Of a DNA stretch of 64,000 nt, positions 7,742 to 29,254 are shown in pieces (the stretch's first letter is position 1; each line of letters begins with the position of its first letter). Where the stretch lies: NCBI RefSeq assembly GCF_017744135.1, contig NZ_JAGHQU010000003.1, forward strand, positions 1 through 64,000, given 5' to 3'. A program made the translations under genes and the position numbers. Under the pieces are notes generated by a model. The model did no database searches and was not told where the DNA came from. It saw only the letters and a list, made by a program, of their open reading frames with translations. The DNA is from Endozoicomonas sp. G2_2. GTDB taxonomy: Bacteria; Pseudomonadota; Gammaproteobacteria; Nevskiales; Salinisphaeraceae.

Positions 7742-8446
7742 ATGACTCTCAGCGCGGAACACATTTCAAGCACGAGCCACGCAGCGCTGGAACTCGCCGG
7801 CGAGCGCTTGCTGCTGCGCGCGGATCACAGCGTCTACTGGCCGGCCGCACGCACGCTGTTGGTCGCCGATACCCATTTCGGCAAGGCCGGCGTGTTTCGA
7901 CAACAAGGCCTGGGGGTGCCGCGCGGCACGACCGATGCGGACCTGAACCGGCTGGGTGCTGCGTTGACCGAGACCGGCGCCGCGCGGCTGATCGTTCTCG
8001 GCGATTTCGTCCATGCGCCGCCGAGCGCTGATGCGCCCTGGCTGGCGCGCTTCGCGGCCTGGCGCGAGCGTTTTGCGGCTGTCGAGATGATCGTCACCCG
8101 CGGCAACCACGATCGCGCCGATCGACTGCCGATTGACTGCGATATCGGCTGGCATGCCGGCAGCCTGCTGGAAGCGCCGTTCGTGTTGCGCCACGAACCC
8201 GCGGCAGATGCCCGCGGGCCGGTACTCGCCGGGCATGTCCATCCGGTCGTGCGCCTGGGCGATGGCAGCGAAAGCCTGCGCGTGCCGGTGTTCTGGCGTC
8301 ATGCCGACGGGCTGATGCTGCCGGCGTTCTGCAGCTTTGCCGGTGGCGGGCGGGTGTCGCCGCGTGCAGGCGATCGCGTGTTCGTGGTCGGCGAGGGCGA
8401 GGTCGTGGAAGCGATGACGCCGGGCGGCCGGACGCGCGCTCAGTGA
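7742..8446 (+). CDS. pdeM: Ligase-associated DNA damage response endonuclease PdeM
   Basis: A 234-residue calcineurin-like phosphoesterase. The metal-binding motifs appear in order: DTHFGK (Asp43, His45), GDFVH (Asp88, His91), GNHD (121-124) and the late GHVHP. This family of manganese-dependent nucleases is encoded with the ATP-dependent ligase and Lhr-Core helicase in many proteobacteria, as here. The start chosen is ATG 7742 (MTLSAEHISS); the frame is open further upstream to 7703, but that adds a tail from repeat-rich DNA. Its end overlaps the MATE gene start by four bases (GTGA). Confidence 0.88.
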   Translation: MTLSAEHISSTSHAALELAGERLLLRADHSVYWPAARTLLVADTHFGKAGVFRQQGLGVPRGTTDADLNRLGAALTETGAARLIVLGDFVHAPPSADAPWLARFAAWRERFAAVEMIVTRGNHDRADRLPIDCDIGWHAGSLLEAPFVLRHEPAADARGPVLAGHVHPVVRLGDGSESLRVPVFWRHADGLMLPAFCSFAGGGRVSPRAGDRVFVVGEGEVVEAMTPGGRTRAQ

Positions 8447-9798
8447 GCCGGGCCGCAGCCGCACGCGGCGGCGCCAGACTGGATGAAGGCCCGATCGCGC
8501 GCCACCTGATCGCGCTGTCGCTGCCCATGGTCTGGGGCATTCTCGCGATGATCGCCTTCAACGTGGCGGATACCTTCTTCGTCGCGCGGCTGGGCACCGC
8601 GCCGCTGGCCGCGCTGTCGTTCACTTTTCCCGTGGTGATGACGGTTTTCTCACTCGCGCTGGGGCTGGGCATCGGCGCGGCATCGGTGATCTCGCGCACG
8701 GTCGGCCGCGGCGATCACGACGAGGTGCGGCGTCTGACCACCGACAGCATGTGGCTCGCGATGGCCATCGTGCTGGTGTTCATGGCCGCCGGGCTTGCAA
8801 CCATCGAGCCCCTGTTTTCGCTGCTCGGCGCCGGCCCCGAGACGCTGCCGCTGATCGTGGCGTATATGCAGATCTGGTATCTCGGCGCGCCGTTCGTGAT
8901 CGTGCCCATGATCGCCAACAACGCCATGCGCGCCTGCGGCAATGCCCGTCTGCCGAGCGCGATCATGGTGGGCAGCGCGGCGCTGAATTTCGTGCTCGAT
9001 CCGCTGCTGATCTTCGGACTCGGACCGGTGCCCGCGCTCGGCCTCCAGGGCGCGGCGATCGCGTCGCTGGCCGCCCGCGCGGCGGCTTTTGTATTGGCGG
9101 TTGCGGCGTTGCACTACCGCATGCGGCTCATCGTCTGGGCGCTGCCGCGCTGGCAGCACCTGCGCGTGTCGGCGCGGCGCGTTGCCGTTATCGCGCTGCC
9201 GGCCGCCGCGACCAACATGGTCAACCCGATCGCGGTGGCTGTCGTGACCGCCGTGGTGGCGAGCTTCGGCCCGGCCGCGGTGGCCGGCTTCGGCGTGGCC
9301 ACCCGCATCGAGGCGATCGCGGTGGTGCCGCTGCTCGCGCTCACGGCCGGCCTCGGCCCGTTGATAGGCCAGAACTGGGGCGCGTCCGAAGCCGGGCGCG
9401 TGCGCGCGGCGATGCGTATCAGCGCGCTGTTCTGCCTTGCCTGGGGGTTGGCGATCGCCGTGCTGCTGTTCGTGTTCGCCCCGCAGATCGCCGGCCTGTT
9501 CGAGGCGGATGCCGAAACCCGCGCCGCGGCGGTGACCTATCTGCGCTGGGTGCCGCCCACCTTTGCCGCCTACGGCGTGCTGATCTGCGTGAATGCGGCG
9601 TTCAATGCGGTGGGCCAGCCCATGCGGGCAACCGCGCTCATGCTCGGACGCACCTTCGGGTTGTTCGTGCCGCTGGCCGCACTTGGCGGCTGGCTGATCG
9701 GCCTTTGGGCGGTGTTTGCGGCCGCGGCCGTGGCCAACCTCGCGATGGGGCTCGTCGGCTACGCGCTGGCGCGTCGCCGACTCACCGCATCGGTCTGA
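8443..9798 (+). CDS. MATE family multidrug efflux transporter
   Basis: A 451-residue inner-membrane protein with about twelve hydrophobic helices in two similar halves, typical of MATE exporters. The N-terminal half carries the family pattern LPMVWGILAMIAFNVADTFF; the second half restarts near residue 235 with an ALPAAATNMVNPIAV helix. MATE proteins expel cationic drugs or metabolites in exchange for Na+ or H+. The start is GTG 8443, overlapping the pdeM stop by four bases, so translation of exporter and nuclease is probably coupled. This pairing is not part of the usual repair operon. The substrate cannot be read from sequence. Confidence 0.9.
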   Translation: MSRAAAARGGARLDEGPIARHLIALSLPMVWGILAMIAFNVADTFFVARLGTAPLAALSFTFPVVMTVFSLALGLGIGAASVISRTVGRGDHDEVRRLTTDSMWLAMAIVLVFMAAGLATIEPLFSLLGAGPETLPLIVAYMQIWYLGAPFVIVPMIANNAMRACGNARLPSAIMVGSAALNFVLDPLLIFGLGPVPALGLQGAAIASLAARAAAFVLAVAALHYRMRLIVWALPRWQHLRVSARRVAVIALPAAATNMVNPIAVAVVTAVVASFGPAAVAGFGVATRIEAIAVVPLLALTAGLGPLIGQNWGASEAGRVRAAMRISALFCLAWGLAIAVLLFVFAPQIAGLFEADAETRAAAVTYLRWVPPTFAAYGVLICVNAAFNAVGQPMRATALMLGRTFGLFVPLAALGGWLIGLWAVFAAAAVANLAMGLVGYALARRRLTASV

Positions 9799-10490: not shown

Positions 10491-10666
10491 GGCCGGTTCC
10501 CGAGAAGAGCGTGAATCGTGGCAGGCCGGCGCGTGTCGCAACGCGCGGCTGATGCACACGATGCGCACGCAACATGACATTTGCATGACAGTTGCGTGAC
10601 GCGGGACACGGCCGCGCTCGTCGCCTGGCTCGGCAGCCTTCGCACGCGGCAGGTAGAATCCCGCGC

Positions 10667-11464
10667 ATGCTTATCGCCATCGTTATCGGCGCCATTGCCG
10701 GCGCTACGTTCATGGGTCTGCCGGGCGCACTGCTCGGCGGCGTTCTCGGTTACTGGGCCGCGCAACTGATCGCCATGACCCTGCTCAAGGGCGCGCTCGG
10801 CACGATCCGCACCCAGTTCCTGAATTCGACGTTCGCCGTTATGGGCGCGCTGTGCAAGGCCGACGGCCAGGTCACGCGCGACGAGATTCGTGTCGCCGAG
10901 GAGCTGTTTTCCAAGCTGCGTCTGTCCGACGACCAGAAGGCGCAGGCCCGGGCGTCGTTCAATCGCGGCAAGGCCGCAGAGTTCGATCTCGACGCCGAAG
11001 TCGAGCGTTTCCGCAAGGTCGCGCGAGGCCAGCGCGCGCTGCACCAGATGTTCCTGCAGGTGCAGATCGCGGCGATCGCCGCCGACGGCAAGATCAGCAG
11101 CGCCGAGCACGACATGATCCTGCGGGTAGCGCGCGGGCTGGGTCTGTCGGATATGGAAATCCGCCAGCTCGAGGCGATGCTGTCCGGTCGCGGCGCGAGT
11201 GGGGCGTCTGGCGACGGCATGGGGTCCAAGGCCGGTGTCGATCCCAAGGAACAACTCGAGCAGGCCTATGCGGTGCTCGGCGTGGAATCGTCGGCCAGCG
11301 ACGGCGAGGTGAAGAAAGCCTATCGTCGCCAGATGAGTCAGAACCATCCCGACAAGCTGGCATCCAAGGGCATGCCGGAAAGCATGCGCGAGATGGCCGA
11401 AGAGAAGACCCGTGAGATCGGCGCCGCCTACGAGCGCATCTGCGAGGCACGCGGCATCAACTGA
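10667..11464 (+). CDS. djlA: Membrane-anchored co-chaperone DjlA
   Basis: A 265-residue protein, close to E. coli DjlA (271). One N-terminal membrane segment (about residues 3-30, Gly-rich) is followed by a TerB-like helical domain (LCKADGQVTRDEI...), then a short linker and a C-terminal J domain with the HPD motif (QNHPDKL). J domains stimulate DnaK ATPase; DjlA is linked to envelope stress signalling through Rcs in enterobacteria. Start ATG 10667 (MLIAIVIGA) fits the family; longer upstream frame residues are not credible. Confidence 0.92.
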   Translation: MLIAIVIGAIAGATFMGLPGALLGGVLGYWAAQLIAMTLLKGALGTIRTQFLNSTFAVMGALCKADGQVTRDEIRVAEELFSKLRLSDDQKAQARASFNRGKAAEFDLDAEVERFRKVARGQRALHQMFLQVQIAAIAADGKISSAEHDMILRVARGLGLSDMEIRQLEAMLSGRGASGASGDGMGSKAGVDPKEQLEQAYAVLGVESSASDGEVKKAYRRQMSQNHPDKLASKGMPESMREMAEEKTREIGAAYERICEARGIN

Positions 11465-19839: not shown

Positions 19840-21213
19840 CTATTGCTGTACGGCGTCGCTGAGATGCGGCAGCCACAGCACGAGCTGCGGGAACTGCCAG
19901 AGCAGAATCAGCGCGAACAACTGCAGGCCGATGAAAGGCACCACGCCGCGATAGATGTCGGCCGTGCGAACCGACGGCGGCGCGACCCCCTTGAGATAGA
20001 ACAGCGCGAAGCCGAACGGCGGGGTCAGGAACGACGCCTGCAGATTGACCGCGATCAGTACCGCGAACCAGAGCGGATCGACCCCCAGCTGGATCGCGAT
20101 CGGCGTGATGACCGGCACCACGATGAAGCTGATCTCGATGAAATCGACGAAAAATCCGAGCACGAAGATCGTGAGCATCGTGAAGAACAGGAACGCCAGG
20201 GTGCCGCCCGGCAGGTTCAGCAGGATCTCCTCGACCAGCTGCGGGCCGCCGAGCGAGGCGAACACCATGGTGAAGGCGGTGGCGCCGAGCAGGATGACGA
20301 ACACCATGGCGGTGAGCTTGACGGTCTGGTCCATCACCGCGCGCAGTGCATCCCAGTCGAGGCGCCGGTTGATGATGGCAAGCAGGGTGGCGCCCAGGGC
20401 GCCCATGGCGCCGGCCTCGGTCGGCGTGGCGATGCCGGCGAAGATGGTGCCGAGCACGATCAGGATCAGCGCCAGTGGCGGCGCCATCGTCCCCAGCACC
20501 CGCAGCAGCAGGCGCCCGCGGCTGATATCGCGTTCGCTGGCCGGCAGCGCCGGCGCGCGTTCGGGATGGCGCAGCGCGACGTAGACGATCCACAGCACGA
20601 ACAGGCCCGACAGCATCACGCCCGGGATGAAGGCGCCGAGAAACAGGTCGCCCACTGAAACCTGCATCTGATCGCCGAGGATGATGAGCACGATGCTCGG
20701 CGGCACGATCTGGCCGAGCGTGCCGGATGCCGCGACGGTACCCGAGGCCAGGCCCTTGTCGTAGTTGTATTTCAGCATCACCGGCAGCGCAAGAACGCCC
20801 ATGGTGACCACCGAGGCCCCGACCACGCCGGTGGAGGCGGCCAGCAGGGTGCCCACGACCACCACCGAGATCGCCAGGCCGCCGCGTACGCGCCCGAACA
20901 GCAGGCCCATGGTCTGAAGCAGGTCGGAGGCCAGGCGCGACTTCTCCAGCATCACGCCCATGAACACGAAGAACGGCACGGCGACCAGTTCGTAGTTGTC
21001 CATGATGTTGCCGAAGATGCGCCCCGGCAAGATGTTGAGCCGCGCCATGCGGAACGCGGGTTCCCAGGGCAGGGCGATGCCCATGTCCGGGAGCATGTCG
21101 CTGCCGATGAGCGTGAACAGCACCGCCGTGCCGCCGAGCGTGAAGGCGACCGGGTAGCCGATCAGCAACATGCCGATCGCGGCCGCGAACATCCATAGCG
21201 CGAGGTAATCCAC
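19840..21213 (-). CDS. TRAP transporter large permease, DctM family
   Basis: A 457-residue inner-membrane protein with about twelve to thirteen hydrophobic helices. DctM patterns include PFFVFMGVMLEKS near helix 2-3 and ASGTLGQIVPPSIVLIILG, the conserved helix-5 segment. It is the ion-coupled channel half of a TRAP system. The start is GTG 21213 (MDYLALWMFA), four bases after the small-permease stop, so the two are translationally coupled. Its binding protein is presumably the convergent dctP gene at 18680. Confidence 0.93.
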   Translation of the reverse strand: MDYLALWMFAAAIGMLLIGYPVAFTLGGTAVLFTLIGSDMLPDMGIALPWEPAFRMARLNILPGRIFGNIMDNYELVAVPFFVFMGVMLEKSRLASDLLQTMGLLFGRVRGGLAISVVVVGTLLAASTGVVGASVVTMGVLALPVMLKYNYDKGLASGTVAASGTLGQIVPPSIVLIILGDQMQVSVGDLFLGAFIPGVMLSGLFVLWIVYVALRHPERAPALPASERDISRGRLLLRVLGTMAPPLALILIVLGTIFAGIATPTEAGAMGALGATLLAIINRRLDWDALRAVMDQTVKLTAMVFVILLGATAFTMVFASLGGPQLVEEILLNLPGGTLAFLFFTMLTIFVLGFFVDFIEISFIVVPVITPIAIQLGVDPLWFAVLIAVNLQASFLTPPFGFALFYLKGVAPPSVRTADIYRGVVPFIGLQLFALILLWQFPQLVLWLPHLSDAVQQ

Positions 21214-21216
21214 GGC

Positions 21217-21789
21217 CTACAAGCCTTCCGTTTCCTGGGTGGCGCGATGGGCTTCGTTATCGGTGAAACCCGGCTCCTGGACCAGATAGGCCACGTTCTT
21301 GATGATCTCGCTGATGCCCTGGAGAATGAGCATGGCGAACGCCACCAGCATCACGGTCTTGATCGGATAGCGCGGCAGTCCGCCGGGGTTCGGGCTCTGC
21401 TCCATCACCGCCCACGAGCGCTCGACGTAGCCGATGCAGAAATACAGCCCGAAGATGCAGAAGGGCACCAGAAACACCAGCGTGCCGAAGATATCGATCC
21501 AGGCCCGGGTGCGCGGGCCCAGCCGGCTGTAGATGATGTCCACGCGCACATGCCCGTCGGCGCGCAGCAGATATGCGGCACCGAGCAGAAAGATCAGGTC
21601 GAAGGCGTAGGTCTGCAGCTCGAGATAGACGTTGGCCGACAGCTGCACGCCGAGATACTGGCCCAGGTAACGGGTGATTACGTTGTAGGCGCCGATCAGC
21701 ACCATGGCCACGGTGAGCCACCACATCGTGCGGCCCACCAGGGTCGACAGGCCGTCGATCGCGCGCGCCGCGCCCAGCAGAATATTCAT
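21217..21789 (-). CDS. TRAP transporter small permease, DctQ family
   Basis: A 190-residue protein with four hydrophobic helices typical of DctQ; helix 2 region carries LELQTYAFDLIFLLGAAYLL and the DGHVRVDIIY motif follows. Start ATG 21789 (MNILLGAARAIDG), preceded by a GGAGG-like site; a longer frame adds Arg-rich residues that look non-native. First gene of the dctQ-dctM pair. Confidence 0.92.
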   Translation of the reverse strand: MNILLGAARAIDGLSTLVGRTMWWLTVAMVLIGAYNVITRYLGQYLGVQLSANVYLELQTYAFDLIFLLGAAYLLRADGHVRVDIIYSRLGPRTRAWIDIFGTLVFLVPFCIFGLYFCIGYVERSWAVMEQSPNPGGLPRYPIKTVMLVAFAMLILQGISEIIKNVAYLVQEPGFTDNEAHRATQETEGL

Positions 21790-21991
21790 CAATTTCCTCC
21801 GGGCGCGTCGTCGGGCCGAGGGGCAGCCAGGCTGCACAAGCCGGCGATTCTAGCTGACCGCGCGGCGCGACCCCAAGCTGGCGGCTCGGCGCCGTGTCCG
21901 ATTGATGCGGCCCCGGCGACGCGCGCTGCGGTCATCGCCGACGATCTGCGGCATATTGGACAGCGCAAGTGAACCGGCAGGGGATGCAGCG

Positions 21992-23941
21992 GTGCAGGAC
22001 TACGAAAAACTCGGGGCCTTCTATCTGGGCCGGGAGCACGATCTCGCCTCGGGAAAAACCGGCACGGCGCCACTGCTCTACGACGCCAAGGATCTGACCA
22101 CCCACGCCGTGATCATCGGCATGACGGGCAGCGGCAAGACTGGCCTCGGCGTCGGTTTGATCGAGGAGGCCGCGATCGACGGCGTGCCCGTCATCGCGAT
22201 CGACCCGAAAGGCGATCTTGGCAATCTGTTGCTCACGTTTCCCGATCTCGCGGCGGCGGATTTCGAACCCTGGGTCGATCCGGCTGCCGCCAGCACTCGC
22301 GGCAAAACGATCGCGGCTCACGCCAGCGCACAGGCCGAACTTTGGCGAAAAGGGCTGGCGAGCTGGAATCAGGACGGTGCACGGATCCGCCGGCTCAAGG
22401 AGGCGGCGGAGTTCGGCATCTTCACGCCGGGTAGCACCGCGGGTATTCCCATTTCGGTGCTCAGTTCCTTCGATGCGCCGAGCGCCGCGCTACGCGACGA
22501 CGCGGAAGCCTTTGCCGAGCGGATCCAGGCGACCGCGATCTCGATTCTCACCCTGCTGGGTATCGATGCCGACCCGCTGTCGAGCCGCGAATACATCCTC
22601 ATCTCCAATATCCTGCAGCACAGCTGGCAGGCAGGGCGCTCGCTCGACTTGCCGGGCCTGATCGGCGCGATTCAGTCGCCGCCGATTAAGCGTATCGGGG
22701 TGATGGACCTGGAAGCCATGTTTCCCGCCCAGGATCGCTTCGCGCTGGCCATGCAGCTGAACAACCTGCTCGCTTCGCCGGGGTTCGCAACCTGGATGCA
22801 GGGCCAGGCGCTGTCCGCACGCTCGCTGTTCTATACCGATGAAGGTCGGCCGCGCGTTTCGGTGCTGTCGATCGCGCATCTCACCGACGCGGAGCGCATG
22901 TTCTTCGTCACGCTGCTGCTCGGCGAGATCATCGCCTGGATGCGCGCCCAGCCGGGCACATCGAGCCTGCGGGCCGTGCTCTACATGGACGAGCTGTTCG
23001 GTTACATGCCGCCGACCGCCAATCCGCCGTCCAAGACCCTGTTCCTGACGCTGCTCAAGCAGGCGCGGGCCTACGGGCTGGGGCTGGTGCTGTCGACCCA
23101 GAACCCGGTCGATCTCGACTACAAGGGCCTGTCCAATACCGGGACCTGGTTCATTGGCCGGCTGCAGACCGAGCGCGACAAGAACCGCGTGCTCGATGGC
23201 CTGGAAGGTGCAGGCGCGGGCGGCGGACCGTTCGACCGCGGCGCCATGGCGCAGACGCTTGCCGGCCTCGGCAAGCGCGTGTTCCTGCTGCACAACGTGC
23301 ACGAGACCGAGCCGGTGGTCTTTCATACCCGCTGGGCGCTGTCGTATCTGCCGGGTCCGCTCACGCGCGAGCAGATTCGCCGGCTGACCCGGGCGAGCGC
23401 TCCGGCCGTGCCGGTCGAGCCGCCGCCAGCCGCCGCCAGCCGCCGATCCGACGCCCCGGGCCGCTGTCGACCAGGCGGCGACGACCACCACGGCGCGCCC
23501 GGTACTCGACCCCGGTATCCGCCAGTATTTTCTGCCGGTCACCACGCCGGGCGACGGGCCGCTGACCTATTACGCGCAGGTGGTTGGAGCCGCCGAGGTC
23601 TTCTTTGTCAGCCGTACCCACGATATCGACGTGCAGCGGGCTTTCGTGTTCGGCGCGGAGCCTGTCGACGGGCCGGTGGCACTCGACTGGGATTGGGCGG
23701 AGCCGATCGCCATCGATATCGCCGCTCTCGAGGATCAGCCACCGGCGGATGCGGCATTCGGGCCGCTTGCTGCGCCGGCGCGCCGAGCGTCCGCCTATCG
23801 TGGCTGGGTGCGCGACTACAAGACCTGGCTGCGCACCGCTCAGGCGCTCACGCTCTATCGCAGCAAGACATTCAAACAGGTCTCTGCGCCCGGCGAGAGC
23901 GAAGCGGATTTTCGCATCCGGCTGCAGCAGTTCGCGCGTGA
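21992..23941 (+). CDS. HerA/DUF87-like ATP-binding protein, frameshifted (N-terminal part)
   Basis: The ATPase half of a HerA/FtsK-like protein. It starts with [14 protein letters not shown]; Walker A is [11 protein letters not shown] (about residue 45 onward), [14 protein letters not shown] follows, Walker B is [10 protein letters not shown], and the sensor-like stretch is [21 protein letters not shown] 21992 is taken as start with AGGGGA in front; an in-frame ATG at 21902 is possible. True homology ends near residue 480. From about 23440 the frame is out of register because of a 10-bp tandem duplication (23421-23440), and the remaining residues to 23941 are a shifted, Arg-rich tail. The intended C-terminus continues in another frame to 24431. 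Cellular role of this family is unknown; HerA relatives pump DNA or power membrane machines. Confidence 0.8.
23421..23440 (+). repeat. 10-bp tandem duplication causing a frameshift
   Basis: Two exact adjacent copies of cgccgccagc (23421-23430 and 23431-23440), with a partial third (cgccga). Ten bases shift the frame by +1. Removing one copy joins the upstream and downstream frames perfectly and gives a single gene of 810 codons. Confidence 0.85.
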
Positions 23942-24431
23942 GCGCCGGGACCTGGAAGTCGGCAAGCTGCGGGCCCGCTACGAGAAGAGCGCCGGCCGGC
24001 TGCGCGAGCGCCTGCGCGCGGCCGAGCGCGACGTCGAGGAACAGAAAGCCCAGGCCAATCAGAAGAAGATCGAGAGCGCGCTGTCGATCGGCGGCGCGCT
24101 GCTGGGCGCCTTTCTCGGGCGAAAGCGCTTGAGCAGCCGCACGGTCAGCCGGGTGGGCACTGCCGCACGGCGTGCCGGCTATGCCGCTAGAGAGATGCGC
24201 GACGTGCGCGAAGCACAAGCCGAGGCGGCCGAACTGCAGGCCCGGCTCGACGCCGAGGGCGAGGCGTTCGCCGCGGACGTGGCGCGCCTGGAGGGCGAGA
24301 TCGACGCCCAGGCCGAGGCGCTCGATACGGTGCAGGTGCGCGCCCGCAGCAGCGATATCGATATTCGTTTCGTCGCGCTGCTGTGGTCGCCCTATCGGCG
24401 CGCGGCTGACGGGCGCACGCGTCCCGCCTGA
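23441..24431 (+). pseudogene. C-terminal part of the frameshifted HerA-like ATPase
   Basis: Downstream of the duplication the reading continues in a different frame: [18 protein letters not shown], then [15 protein letters not shown], a beta-rich segment, and a long charged helical region (about 23900-24330, rich in Arg, Glu and Ala, predicted coiled coil) enclosing IESALSIGGALLGAFLG. The segment ends with RFVALLWSPYRR and a stop at 24431. Related full-length proteins have this order after the ATPase domain. The frame could be used alone only from an internal GTG such as 23580, so it is best seen as the severed half of one gene. Combined length without the extra 10 bp is 809 residues, normal for the family. 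Confidence 0.75.
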
Positions 24432-24465
24432 TCGGGGGCGCTACGCGCGGACATACCGCGGACAT

Positions 24466-24498
24466 AAAAAAGCCCGATGCGCCGAGGGCGCACCGGGC
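24466..24498 (-). terminator. Terminator of the acylase gene
   Basis: gcccgatgcgcc (24472-24483) pairs with ggcgcaccgggc (24487-24498) with one mismatch; on the minus strand TTTTTT follows directly. It ends the acylase transcript. Confidence 0.88.
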
Positions 24499-24515
24499 AC
24501 GTCGTGATGCCGTTG

Positions 24516-27233
24516 TTATTCGGCTTCGTCTTCGGTTTCGGCCGCCACCGAGGCCTCGATGGTCTCGACCTGCAGCGCCTCGTCGTCGGTGATATCGGCC
24601 TGCGTATAGAGCAGCTTGCGATAGTTCTTGGCCGAGTAGCGCAGATCCTGATCCTGGAAATTCGCGGAACTCGGATCGTCCGACTGGCCGTAGCTGATCA
24701 GCCCGTAACCCTGCGGGCCTTCGTCGGTGAAGCTCAGGCCGAAGTGCCAACTGGTGCCGTAGGCAATCCGCCAGCCTTCGTTGTCGGCGCTCGACAGGCT
24801 GCCCGTGTTCGGGATGGTGCCGGCGGGCGCGACGCGCGGATAGCGGGTGCCATCCTCCACGCGACCCGTATCTGGACGCACGATGTTGAAGCCGCCTTCC
24901 AGGTTCTGGTTGCCGTGCCATTCGATCGGGCTGCCGGACGGCGCCGGCGTGCCGCCGGGCGGGGTGCCGGCCGACTGCTGCTGGCGTTGCACATCGCCCA
25001 GACGCGCGTCGTAGGCGATGTTCACCTGGTCCAGTCGGTTCAGGCCGCGAGCCAGCGAGGCCAGCATCGGATCCTGGGCAACATCGGCCGGCGCTTCGTT
25101 CGGCGTGCTCGGCGTGGTTGCCGGGTTGGTCGGGTCGAACGCCACCGAGAACTCGCTCGGGAAGGCCGGGTCGTAGTCGCCGATGAATACACGGAAAACG
25201 TGGGCACCCCGGCTGTCCACGTCGTATATGCCGTCCCAGTTGGCCAGTGCGGTGCAGCCCTCGGCCACGGAACGGCTGCTGCTGTCGTCGGTAGCAATCG
25301 GCGTGGTGCCGGCCGCGTCACACCGGGTCAGCAGTTCGTCGAGCAGCGTCTCGGCGTAGTAGGCGCGGTTGGAATAGAGCGCCTTGATGATCTCCTCGCC
25401 GGTGAACTTGCCGTCGCTGCCGGCCGGCGCCACCGTGGACAGGCCGGTATCGGTCGGGTTCTCCAGCATCGCCAGGCCCATACGGGTACGCGGCGAGAGA
25501 ATGCTTTCGGTCGGCCCGAAGAGCGGCGAGAACCCGGTCAGGAAGGCGTCCGGGTTGGTCGCCCAGTAGCTGTCGTTCGAGTTCTGGACATAATCGCGGC
25601 GTTCGAGCTTGGGCATGCCGTCATAGGCGATACGCCCGCCGCAATCGCCCTCGACCCAGTCGTTCAACCCGCGGCTGCCGTCGAGAAGCGTCACACCGTT
25701 GGCGAACAGGCCGCCGACCACCGGGTTCGTGTTCGCCCGTGCCTGGAACGCCTGCAGCGCGCCGCCGGACAGGTTGGGTACCGACGTGCCGTCGATATAG
25801 AAGGCCTGGCCGGAATCGTCGGCGTACATCGTGTTGACCCAGAGCACGCTGCCGCAGCTTTCGAACGGCTGCTGGAACTGGTCCACGTTGCGCGCGCGGC
25901 CCATGTTCAGCCACTGATCCACGACCAGACGCGCGGTATCGGCGTTCGCATCGCGATAGGTGAACGCCGTGGGACGACCGGCGAAGGTATTGCCCCACGC
26001 CGGAAGATTGCCGTTGATGACGTTGCCGGCCAGCATCGGCCCGTGTTCCGAGTAGTAGAAATCACGCTCGAAGGTCGCCGTCTGGCCGCCGCCGACATTG
26101 ACCTGGATGGAAATCGTCTTTTGCGTGATGGGCTTTTCTTCGCCGTCCTTGATATAGGTCAGATTGTCGCCGGACTTCAGCGTGAGGTCGTAGAGCGTGA
26201 AATGCTGGGCCGTGGACACGGTATGCGTCCAGGCGATGTTTTCGTTGAAGCCGATCAGCGGAATCACGACGCCGATCAGGCCGGCGCCATTGACGTCGTA
26301 GACGCCCGGCACCGTGATCTGCATCTGATAGAGCCGGCGGTTACCGGTATACGGAAAGTGCGGGTTGGCCAGCAGGGCGCCCTTGCCGTTCTCGGTCAGC
26401 TCCGAGCCAATGCCCCAGCCGTTGCTGCCCATGCCGCGGTCGTTGTAATTGGTCTTGAGCCCGAGTGCTTGCGGCGTTAGACGTGCGACGCTGGCCGCCA
26501 GCCGGTTTGCCTCGGCGGGATTGGCGCTTGCGCTCGCTGCCGGCATGGCCATCGTGGGCGCTGGACTCGTGCCGGGCGGTACCGCAGCAAAAAGAGGCCC
26601 CTGAACGAAGTTGTCGCCGCTCGCGTAGAGCGCGACCAGCTGATAGTAGGCATAGACGTCTTCGGCGCTGATCGGCCGTACCCAGGGCGCCTGATTGCAC
26701 TTGGCGGGCAGATCGGCCGGCGCGGTCTCGTCGACGTACTTGTTATAGCCGGCGGCGAAGCCGCGAAGCATGGCCTGCGAAGGCGCCGAGATTTCATCGA
26801 ACTCGGCCTGCGCTTTTTCGAGCAGGCCCAGCGCCTTGTAACTGAAATCCGTGACGATGTTGATGCCGACGGGCAGCGCGGCGGCGACGTCCGGGCCCGG
26901 GCCGTAGAACATGGCCCGCTCGCCGCGCGCACGGATGATCGAGTCGGCGATCAGGCAGACATTGTCGCGTGCCTGCACATAGCCGGAGCCGAACGCCGCG
27001 GATTCGAGGTTGTCGGCGGTGATATGCGGCACGCTGCCGGTGGTGGTCTGAATACGCGCACTCAGCGCGCCGTCCGGTGCATTGATCTGGCTGTCGCTCA
27101 GCGCCGGCAGGCCGTTGCCGCTGCCACCGCCCGAGTCGCTGTCGCTATCCGATGAGCAGCCGATCAGGCCGGCCGACAGACACAGCGAAATGCCGGCCAC
27201 CAGCACCGGCCGCTTCCAGTGAATTGTTTTCAT
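24516..27233 (-). CDS. Penicillin acylase family lipoprotein (possible acyl-homoserine-lactone acylase)
   Basis: A 905-residue Ntn-hydrolase. The signal peptide ends at a lipobox (AGLIGCSS, Cys26), so it is likely membrane-anchored, followed by a Ser/Asp/Gly-rich linker. The small (alpha) domain precedes the autocleavage site GSNGWGIG, where Ser270 becomes the N-terminal nucleophile after processing; LLANPHFPY and the beta-subunit motifs follow. Members cleave amide bonds of penicillins, cephalosporins or N-acyl-homoserine lactones. At the C-terminus there is an acidic tail (EAEDEAE-like). Start ATG 27233 (MKTIHWKRPVLVAG) gives the signal peptide; the longer frame is rejected. Substrate is not determinable from sequence; the family layout is nearer to AHL or aculeacin acylases. 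Confidence 0.88.
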   Translation of the reverse strand: MKTIHWKRPVLVAGISLCLSAGLIGCSSDSDSDSGGGSGNGLPALSDSQINAPDGALSARIQTTTGSVPHITADNLESAAFGSGYVQARDNVCLIADSIIRARGERAMFYGPGPDVAAALPVGINIVTDFSYKALGLLEKAQAEFDEISAPSQAMLRGFAAGYNKYVDETAPADLPAKCNQAPWVRPISAEDVYAYYQLVALYASGDNFVQGPLFAAVPPGTSPAPTMAMPAASASANPAEANRLAASVARLTPQALGLKTNYNDRGMGSNGWGIGSELTENGKGALLANPHFPYTGNRRLYQMQITVPGVYDVNGAGLIGVVIPLIGFNENIAWTHTVSTAQHFTLYDLTLKSGDNLTYIKDGEEKPITQKTISIQVNVGGGQTATFERDFYYSEHGPMLAGNVINGNLPAWGNTFAGRPTAFTYRDANADTARLVVDQWLNMGRARNVDQFQQPFESCGSVLWVNTMYADDSGQAFYIDGTSVPNLSGGALQAFQARANTNPVVGGLFANGVTLLDGSRGLNDWVEGDCGGRIAYDGMPKLERRDYVQNSNDSYWATNPDAFLTGFSPLFGPTESILSPRTRMGLAMLENPTDTGLSTVAPAGSDGKFTGEEIIKALYSNRAYYAETLLDELLTRCDAAGTTPIATDDSSSRSVAEGCTALANWDGIYDVDSRGAHVFRVFIGDYDPAFPSEFSVAFDPTNPATTPSTPNEAPADVAQDPMLASLARGLNRLDQVNIAYDARLGDVQRQQQSAGTPPGGTPAPSGSPIEWHGNQNLEGGFNIVRPDTGRVEDGTRYPRVAPAGTIPNTGSLSSADNEGWRIAYGTSWHFGLSFTDEGPQGYGLISYGQSDDPSSANFQDQDLRYSAKNYRKLLYTQADITDDEALQVETIEASVAAETEDEAE

Positions 27234-28369: not shown

Positions 28370-29254
28370 TCAACGCAGCTGGAAACGTACCGGCACGGTC
28401 AACGCCAATCGCTGCATGGAGACGCTGTCGGGCAGCGCGGGCATGGGGTTGGCCTTGCGGATCATGTCGCGCACGGCCTCATCGAGCAGTTCGTGGCCGG
28501 AGCTTTCACGAATTTCCCAGTCCAGCACGCGGCCATTGCGGTCCATGACGAAATACAGCAGGACCGTGCCTTCCTGACGCAGGCGGCGGGCGCGGCGTGG
28601 ATAGTCCTTGTAGCGCTGCAGCCAGGCGCTGAGCTCGCTCTGGTAGTCCGGCGGTGTGTCCGACACGCTGCCGGTGGTGCCCTGTTGCGTGCGTTGCGCG
28701 GTCTGTGCCGCCTGCGCCGGGGCGTTGTCCTGATCCTGACCGCCCGCCGGCTCGGCGCTTTGCGAGCGCTGTGCGCTGCGCGTGGGCTCGGGCGGCGCGG
28801 GTTCGCGTTTGGGCTGCGGACGCGGCTCCGGTTTCGGCTCCGGTCTGGGCGTCGGCTTCGGTTCGGGCTCTGGCTGTGGTTCGGGTTCCGGCTCGGGCTC
28901 CGGCTCGGGCTCCGGCACTGGTTCCGGTTCCGGTACCGGCGTTGGTTCAGGCTCGGGTTCCGGCGTCGGCTCAGGTTCGGGTTCGGGTTCCGGCTCAGGT
29001 TCGGGTTCGGGTTCCGGCTCGGGCGGCGGTGCGTCCTCTTCCGGGGGGTCGTTTTCTTCCGCCGGTGCGTCGGCGGCGACCTGCTCGGGTTTTGGTTCGC
29101 CCTGTTCCGGCGCGAGCGCGATACGGACACCGCTGGCGCCGCTCTGGGTGGACGACAGGGTGTCCTCCACCTGGAAGCGGATCAGCAGAGCCGCATGGGC
29201 GACGAGGGCGATCGCGAGCACGACCAGCCAGTGGCGCAGACCGATACGTTTCAT
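28370..29254 (-). CDS. TonB family energy transducer
   Basis: A 294-residue protein. One N-terminal transmembrane helix (about residues 8-25, [15 protein letters not shown], with the SHLS-like His21) anchors it in the inner membrane. A periplasmic spacer follows, made of Pro-Glu repeats (about residues 73-155), then Pro-Lys/Arg segments. The C-terminal TonB domain (about 215-294) contains [20 protein letters not shown] and GHELLDEAV. TonB transmits proton-motive force from ExbB/ExbD to outer-membrane receptors. Start overlaps the second exbD by four bases (ATGA). Confidence 0.9.

Follow-up and report, generated by a model that had tools for sequence, protein, structure and literature searches.

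The window, that is, the whole stretch of DNA analysed (64,000 nucleotides), is contig 27 of a draft genome of 33 contigs and 3.73 Mb. Its forward strand carries a gene for an ATPase of the HerA/FtsK superfamily that is distributed over two reading frames, with a short tandem array where one frame gives way to the other. The gene starts with the GTG at 21992, and the purine-rich sequence ggcaggggatg just before this codon is a putative ribosome site. The features referred to below are the following:

21992-23941, forward strand: upstream frame of the broken gene, from the GTG to the first in-frame stop codon (649 residues)
23418-23445, forward strand: array of period 10 with the unit AGCCGCCGCC, in the Ala/Pro-rich linker (Tandem Repeats Finder, lag scan)
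23420-23941, forward strand: out-of-frame tail of 173 residues, rich in Arg, Ala and Gly, without family similarity
23445-24431, forward strand: downstream frame, comprising the remainder of the linker and then the C-terminal domain of the family, a coiled-coil hairpin with beta elements (tblastn)
23580-23582, forward strand: GTG, the first ATG, GTG or TTG of the downstream frame, 45 codons after 23445

The tandem array and the two reading frames

Two exact copies of cgccgccagc, described in the earlier note as lying side by side, were found by direct reading of the sequence at 23421-23430 and 23431-23440. Tandem Repeats Finder bore out these copies and placed them in a slightly longer array at 23418-23445, with period 10, 2.8 copies of the unit and 100% matches, and the lag scan revealed an 18-base perfect run at lag 10. 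No other array in the window combines a period between 4 and 30 that is not a multiple of 3 with a run reaching max(period,18). When the window was simulated 100 times with an order-2 Markov model, no lag-10 run of this length appeared; the simulations were drawn from the composition of the whole window and not from that of the GCC-rich linker, and therefore understate local chance. The array is located inside the coding region, and its unit number alters the reading frame. Within the source genome the 20-base double unit has a single occurrence, and it is absent from all 13 other genomes of the genus, only one of which, G004, possesses the gene. Furthermore, no array whose period lies between 4 and 30 and whose run reaches max(period,15) was detected in 337,153 readable bases of the source genome, surveyed as 17 other stretches amounting to about 9% of the genome after three masked stretches had been dropped. 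A second short repeat (24446-24466, period 11, 1.9 copies) lies directly past the stop codon of the gene.

The upstream frame is open from 21854 to 23941 and the downstream frame from 23388 to 24431; both are open together over 23388-23941. Past the array, the sequence of the family C-terminus is found in the +1 frame, up to 24431, a claim of the earlier note that the frames, third-position GC and tblastn uphold. Third-position GC amounts to 0.834 for the upstream and 0.815 for the downstream frame, and would be 0.549 if the upstream frame were continued past the array. In tblastn, relatives carry the downstream-frame part in one frame with the motor, and this part shares 47-48% identity with the two closest relatives. 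When one unit is discounted, the reading from GTG 21992 to 24431 amounts to (24431-21992+1-10)/3 = 810 codons including the stop codon, or 809 residues, in agreement with the 810 codons previously calculated. Among the 649 residues of the upstream frame about 476 represent family sequence, and the remainder is the out-of-frame tail, whose composition (R 19%, A 17%, G 15%) looks like that of an out-of-frame translation. Searches for further signals gave no Rfam match within 20000-26000 and no sigma-70 promoter-like site within 21700-24600.

Motor, linker and C-terminal domain

In Pfam, the N part of the window's gene matched HerA_C with 30.6 bits (cut-off 22) and DUF87 with 29.9 bits (cut-off 23.2). 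Concordantly, the best VIA-align match of a structural model of the intact relative L017 was HerA of Sulfolobus solfataricus (Z 25.7, rmsd 3.3, 318 residues), and the motor also aligned with VirB4, the DndH C-domain and the HerA parts of the Sir2/HerA and DUF4297-HerA complexes. Sequence searches of the upstream part against solved structures returned weak HerA-type matches (best E 3.1e-07), and PHROGs yielded two motor matches. A Walker-A-like motif, GMTGSGKT, is located at residue 43 and is preceded by 42 residues; as the upstream frame opens at 21854, at most 46 further codons could be added before GTG 21992. In HerA, an N-terminal HAS barrel precedes the motor. No counterpart of this N-terminal part was found before the motor, since the alignment begins at HerA residue 119, which pairs with residue 8 of the L017 model. 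Moreover, the upstream part scored far below the cut-offs of the NCBIfam equivalogs helicase_HerA (14.6 vs 970 bits) and HerA_antiphage (28.5 vs 800 bits). The previous designation as HerA-like thus holds at the level of the superfamily, as seen in Pfam and in the fold, but does not extend to HerA itself. The best PADLOC match was mad8 (E 5.5e-14, 50.4 bits, residues 35-445), a hint toward the MADS defence protein Mad8 that we regard as a lead only.

In the L017 model (29 sequences, mean pLDDT 81.8) the motor comprises approximately residues 1-471, residues 474-493 fall below pLDDT 50, and beta elements are arranged around a long helical hairpin beyond this linker. Residue 476 of the window's protein, directly before the array codons, matches L017 residue 475, which places the duplication in the flexible linker. 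In the relatives, the linker measures 46-97 residues in the block compared, with 25% Ala and 17% Pro, and because it is variable in length, duplications within it should be tolerated if they are in frame. The linker that contains the array is thus variable and rich in Ala and Pro, and it joins a HerA/FtsK-type motor to an uncharacterised C-terminal domain.

The C-terminal domain has a size of about 300 residues, and the model of the window's own C part reached a mean pLDDT of 87.9. Foldseek comparison of the C part with the PDB gave nothing at E <= 0.001 (best E 0.021), and the search of PHROGs with this part returned no match. The window's own C part matched no Pfam family; the C-part alignment hit 10 families, each through one of 30 members, and these hits look like coiled-coil noise. 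A profile of the C part searched against solved structures found two weak coiled-coil matches (best E 0.028). The conserved C part (window 23493-24428) includes a Gly-rich sequence, GALLGAFLGRK, near the tip of the long helical hairpin.

Intact relatives and genomic context

We compared the gene with 90 relatives, consisting of L015 and L016 from the same organism family, the best 80 of 127 in genome contigs, and 8 from a class-wide sample. In 79 of the 90, a single open gene runs through the linker, with 770 residues or more counted from the start of the match, confirming the earlier view of a single gene of family size. In ten relatives the available stretch ends ahead of any stop codon, and in three of these (L018, L019 and L044) the C part has by then begun, without a change of frame. 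The only frame-broken relative, L077, derives from an Acidobacteria MAG; its frame break (2797 onward) occurs at the linker by a different lesion, and its C part is shortened. A two-gene architecture was rejected in view of the 79 single-gene relatives.

These comparisons also bear on the idea that two stable polypeptides are produced, or a full-length protein by programmed +1 recoding. Either would be consistent with the overlap of the open frames over 23388-23941 and with domains that form separate folds in the models. However, the first start codon available downstream, GTG 23580, lies 45 codons past 23445 and, judged by eye, has no Shine-Dalgarno-like sequence in the 20 bases before it, and termination-reinitiation does not fit an upstream frame that stops only at 23941, far beyond this GTG. 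As to recoding, no obvious slippery site was seen by eye, 79 relatives read one frame without it, and the frame change is not conserved, the other relatives either reaching the end of their stretch (10) or being broken differently (1). We therefore rejected programmed recoding and consider this family of explanations highly improbable.

The closest relatives, L015 and L016, share 76% and 74% identity with the window over the upstream part. A comparison with relatives, proposed in the earlier note, was informative insofar as both genes are intact and their linkers lack the repeat, but these linkers have diverged too far to reveal the ancestral allele. In pairwise comparisons of the upstream part, identity was 76.9% for window-L015, 74.7% for window-L016 and 74.2% for L015-L016; for the C half the corresponding values were 46.4%, 49.2% and 42.1%. 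Where a column is conserved in 80% or more of the relatives, the C half of the window keeps 0.879 (median 0.939; 11 of 80 rows lower), and at the same columns L016 keeps 0.879 and L015 0.848. Since L016 scores the same as the window and L015 lower, the retention of 0.879 looks like divergence of the whole lineage and not like decay. Judged from these sequence comparisons, the C half displays no clear decay or relaxed drift, which suggests that the frame shift is probably recent. An old pseudogene, or a gene in decay, is unsupported given this conservation.

The ATPase family occurs in distant phyla and is patchy within the order. Of 85 genomes of the order, 3 contain its C part, and high-scoring matches to the upstream part came from 2 of the 14 genomes examined in the genus, namely the source genome and G004. 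When the window region 21837-24516 was compared with L119 (G003), L120 (G007) and L121 (G005), the genes for a TRAP-transporter dctQ-like protein and an acylase were found to be adjacent in these loci, with 140-197 bases between match ends. The two genes that flank the ATPase gene in the window are thus direct neighbours in three other species of the genus, so that a gain or loss of the ATPase gene has taken place here. The copy in G004 adjoins the same acylase gene and has an osmC-like gene on its other side, with no TRAP match within the stretch examined. HerA helicases have NurA, Sir2 or DUF4297 genes as adjacent partners. For the present family, a survey by clusters of neighbouring genes at 73 of 82 loci (those longer than 7 kb, many loci being cut by contig ends) revealed no recurrent gene partner: the family itself was present in 71 of the 73 loci and the next largest cluster, among the clusters listed, in 6. 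A conserved operon partner, considered as a clue to function, was not found among the ten largest clusters listed.

Two further observations concern neighbouring genes. The acylase gene is matched by two neighbouring or overlapping pieces in G013 (L115/L117) and in G002 (L116/L118), which suggests frame breaks there too. Moreover, the gene at 28370-29254 of the window, TonB-like by appearance only, contains a degenerate repeat (28824-29024; period 6, 12, 24) that encodes an acidic Pro-Glu stretch.

Probable origin of the duplication and comparison with known systems

An artefactual account would be an assembly or consensus error, in which the true genome is one unit shorter and the gene intact. 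It would be in line with a family that is nearly always intact, with the coding signature kept downstream of the array and with the draft state of the genome in 33 contigs. On the other hand, the 28-base array is unique in the source genome. An array of 28 bases is well below typical read length, and a miscount of one 10-base unit is therefore unlikely. In the available part of PMC12817950, short-read miscalling of tandem repeats is described as mattering mainly when the array exceeds the read length. Sequence quality was checked by matching ORFs from four same-genus loci to the window; 34 matched, and three of these did so in two frames: the broken ATPase gene, one ORF spanning two window genes, and one that appears to be an antisense ORF across two genes. 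Only the ATPase gene thus has a frame change that is not ascribable to separate genes or to an antisense ORF, and overall we regard an error of this kind as unlikely. In G004, one open frame (L016 16618-18900) corresponds to two distinct genes of the window (8443-9798 and 10592-11464) and may reflect a fusion, or an error of sequence, in that genome.

We favour a recent 10-bp tandem duplication that frame-shifted one chromosomal HerA/FtsK-type ATPase gene between the motor and the C-terminal domain, and assign this reading a probability of roughly three in four. On this reading, the duplication would be private to the isolate or its lineage, truncating, and revertible at low frequency. Discounting one unit leaves an 18-base stretch in which AGCCGCCG occurs twice, as an 8-bp direct repeat at 10-bp spacing; in a one-unit allele this repeat would constitute a natural slippage substrate for gaining a unit, and replication slippage on it most likely added one. 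The resulting two-unit allele would encode the motor followed by the 173-residue Arg-rich tail, lacking the C-terminal domain, and its product as sequenced is probably altered or without function. The frame would be regained if one unit were lost or two were added, but not if one were added, so that the change is revertible in principle, presumably at a low rate. According to the part of PMC4022640 available, spontaneous short tandem duplications in pneumococcal capsule genes revert, and for an insertion no longer than 9 bp the reversion frequency is expected not to exceed about 1e-5. In view of this figure, occasional reversion is plausible without an evolved switch.

The earlier note had offered a reversible on/off switch, a recent mutation and an assembly error side by side. 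The recent mutation is favoured by the absence of the repeat from the two closest relatives and by a C half without clear decay; no positive evidence was obtained for the switch. An evolved contingency (phase-variation) locus, in which changes of the 10-bp copy number turn the ATPase on and off within the population, requires a hypermutable tract together with strain-to-strain variation, and such a tract is usually conserved. Several properties of the locus would suit it: the unit is not a multiple of 3, the array is located in a tolerant linker exactly between the domains, loss of one unit regains the frame, and the C half is without clear decay. Moreover, spontaneous short duplications that toggle genes are described in the part of PMC4022640 available, and frameshift switches in an environmental bacterium in that of PMC12501158. 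Against this, the array has 2.8 copies only, compared with the long or homopolymeric tracts of known switches, L015 and L016 lack the repeat, the double unit is absent from the 13 other genomes of the genus (with the gene only in G004), and no further such array was found in the 337,153 readable bases of the source genome. Searches of the literature gave, among the matches listed, no title on phase variation of a HerA ATPase, and for phase variation in Salinisphaera no relevant match. Such a switch is mechanically possible but without positive support, and we consider it improbable. The same applies to a young contingency switch, in which one versus two extra units would toggle the ATPase between its full length and a motor-only form with a basic tail, both states being present in the population of an environmental gammaproteobacterial lineage; the toggled ATPase, which is sporadic in its occurrence, would possibly be defence-related.

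As a mutation, the favoured recent duplication is ordinary, a short tandem duplication breaking one gene in one sequenced genome. It nevertheless illustrates cleanly how an 8-bp direct repeat already present in a GC-rich linker of Ala and Pro codons can give rise to a frame-breaking, potentially revertible duplication exactly between two domains, and if both alleles were found, a HerA-like ATPase would join the genes that may switch by slippage. The ATPase family is interesting in itself, given its occurrence in distant phyla, its patchy distribution and its conserved C-terminal domain without a significant fold match in the PDB. With the members of the HerA/FtsK superfamily (HerA, VirB4, the DndH C-domain, Sir2/HerA and DUF4297-HerA) it shares the motor fold. 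Unlike HerA, it lacks the N-terminal part and carries instead the 300-residue C-terminal domain, for which no significant PDB fold match was obtained.

With regard to the mechanism, the array resembles swrA and slrC of Bacillus subtilis, in which the repeat number in the coding region shifts the frame; in the part of PMC12501158 available, the tracts of both genes are 8-base homopolymers, and ortholog frameshifts amount to 15.5% for swrA, which is an accepted switch, and 2.6% for slrC. In contrast, one of 90 relatives is frame-broken here (L077, by another lesion), and the repeat is private to the source genome. A second parallel is provided by short duplications in pneumococcal capsule genes such as cap3A. 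As in the array described here, a short direct duplication within the ORF breaks the gene in cap8E/wchA and tts and can be lost by slippage or recombination (Waite et al. 2001, 2003, as cited in the part of PMC4022640 available). Reversion and phenotype were measured for the capsule genes, whereas the present case is known from the sequence of one genome and involves 2.8 copies of a 10-bp unit in the linker of a HerA-like ATPase.
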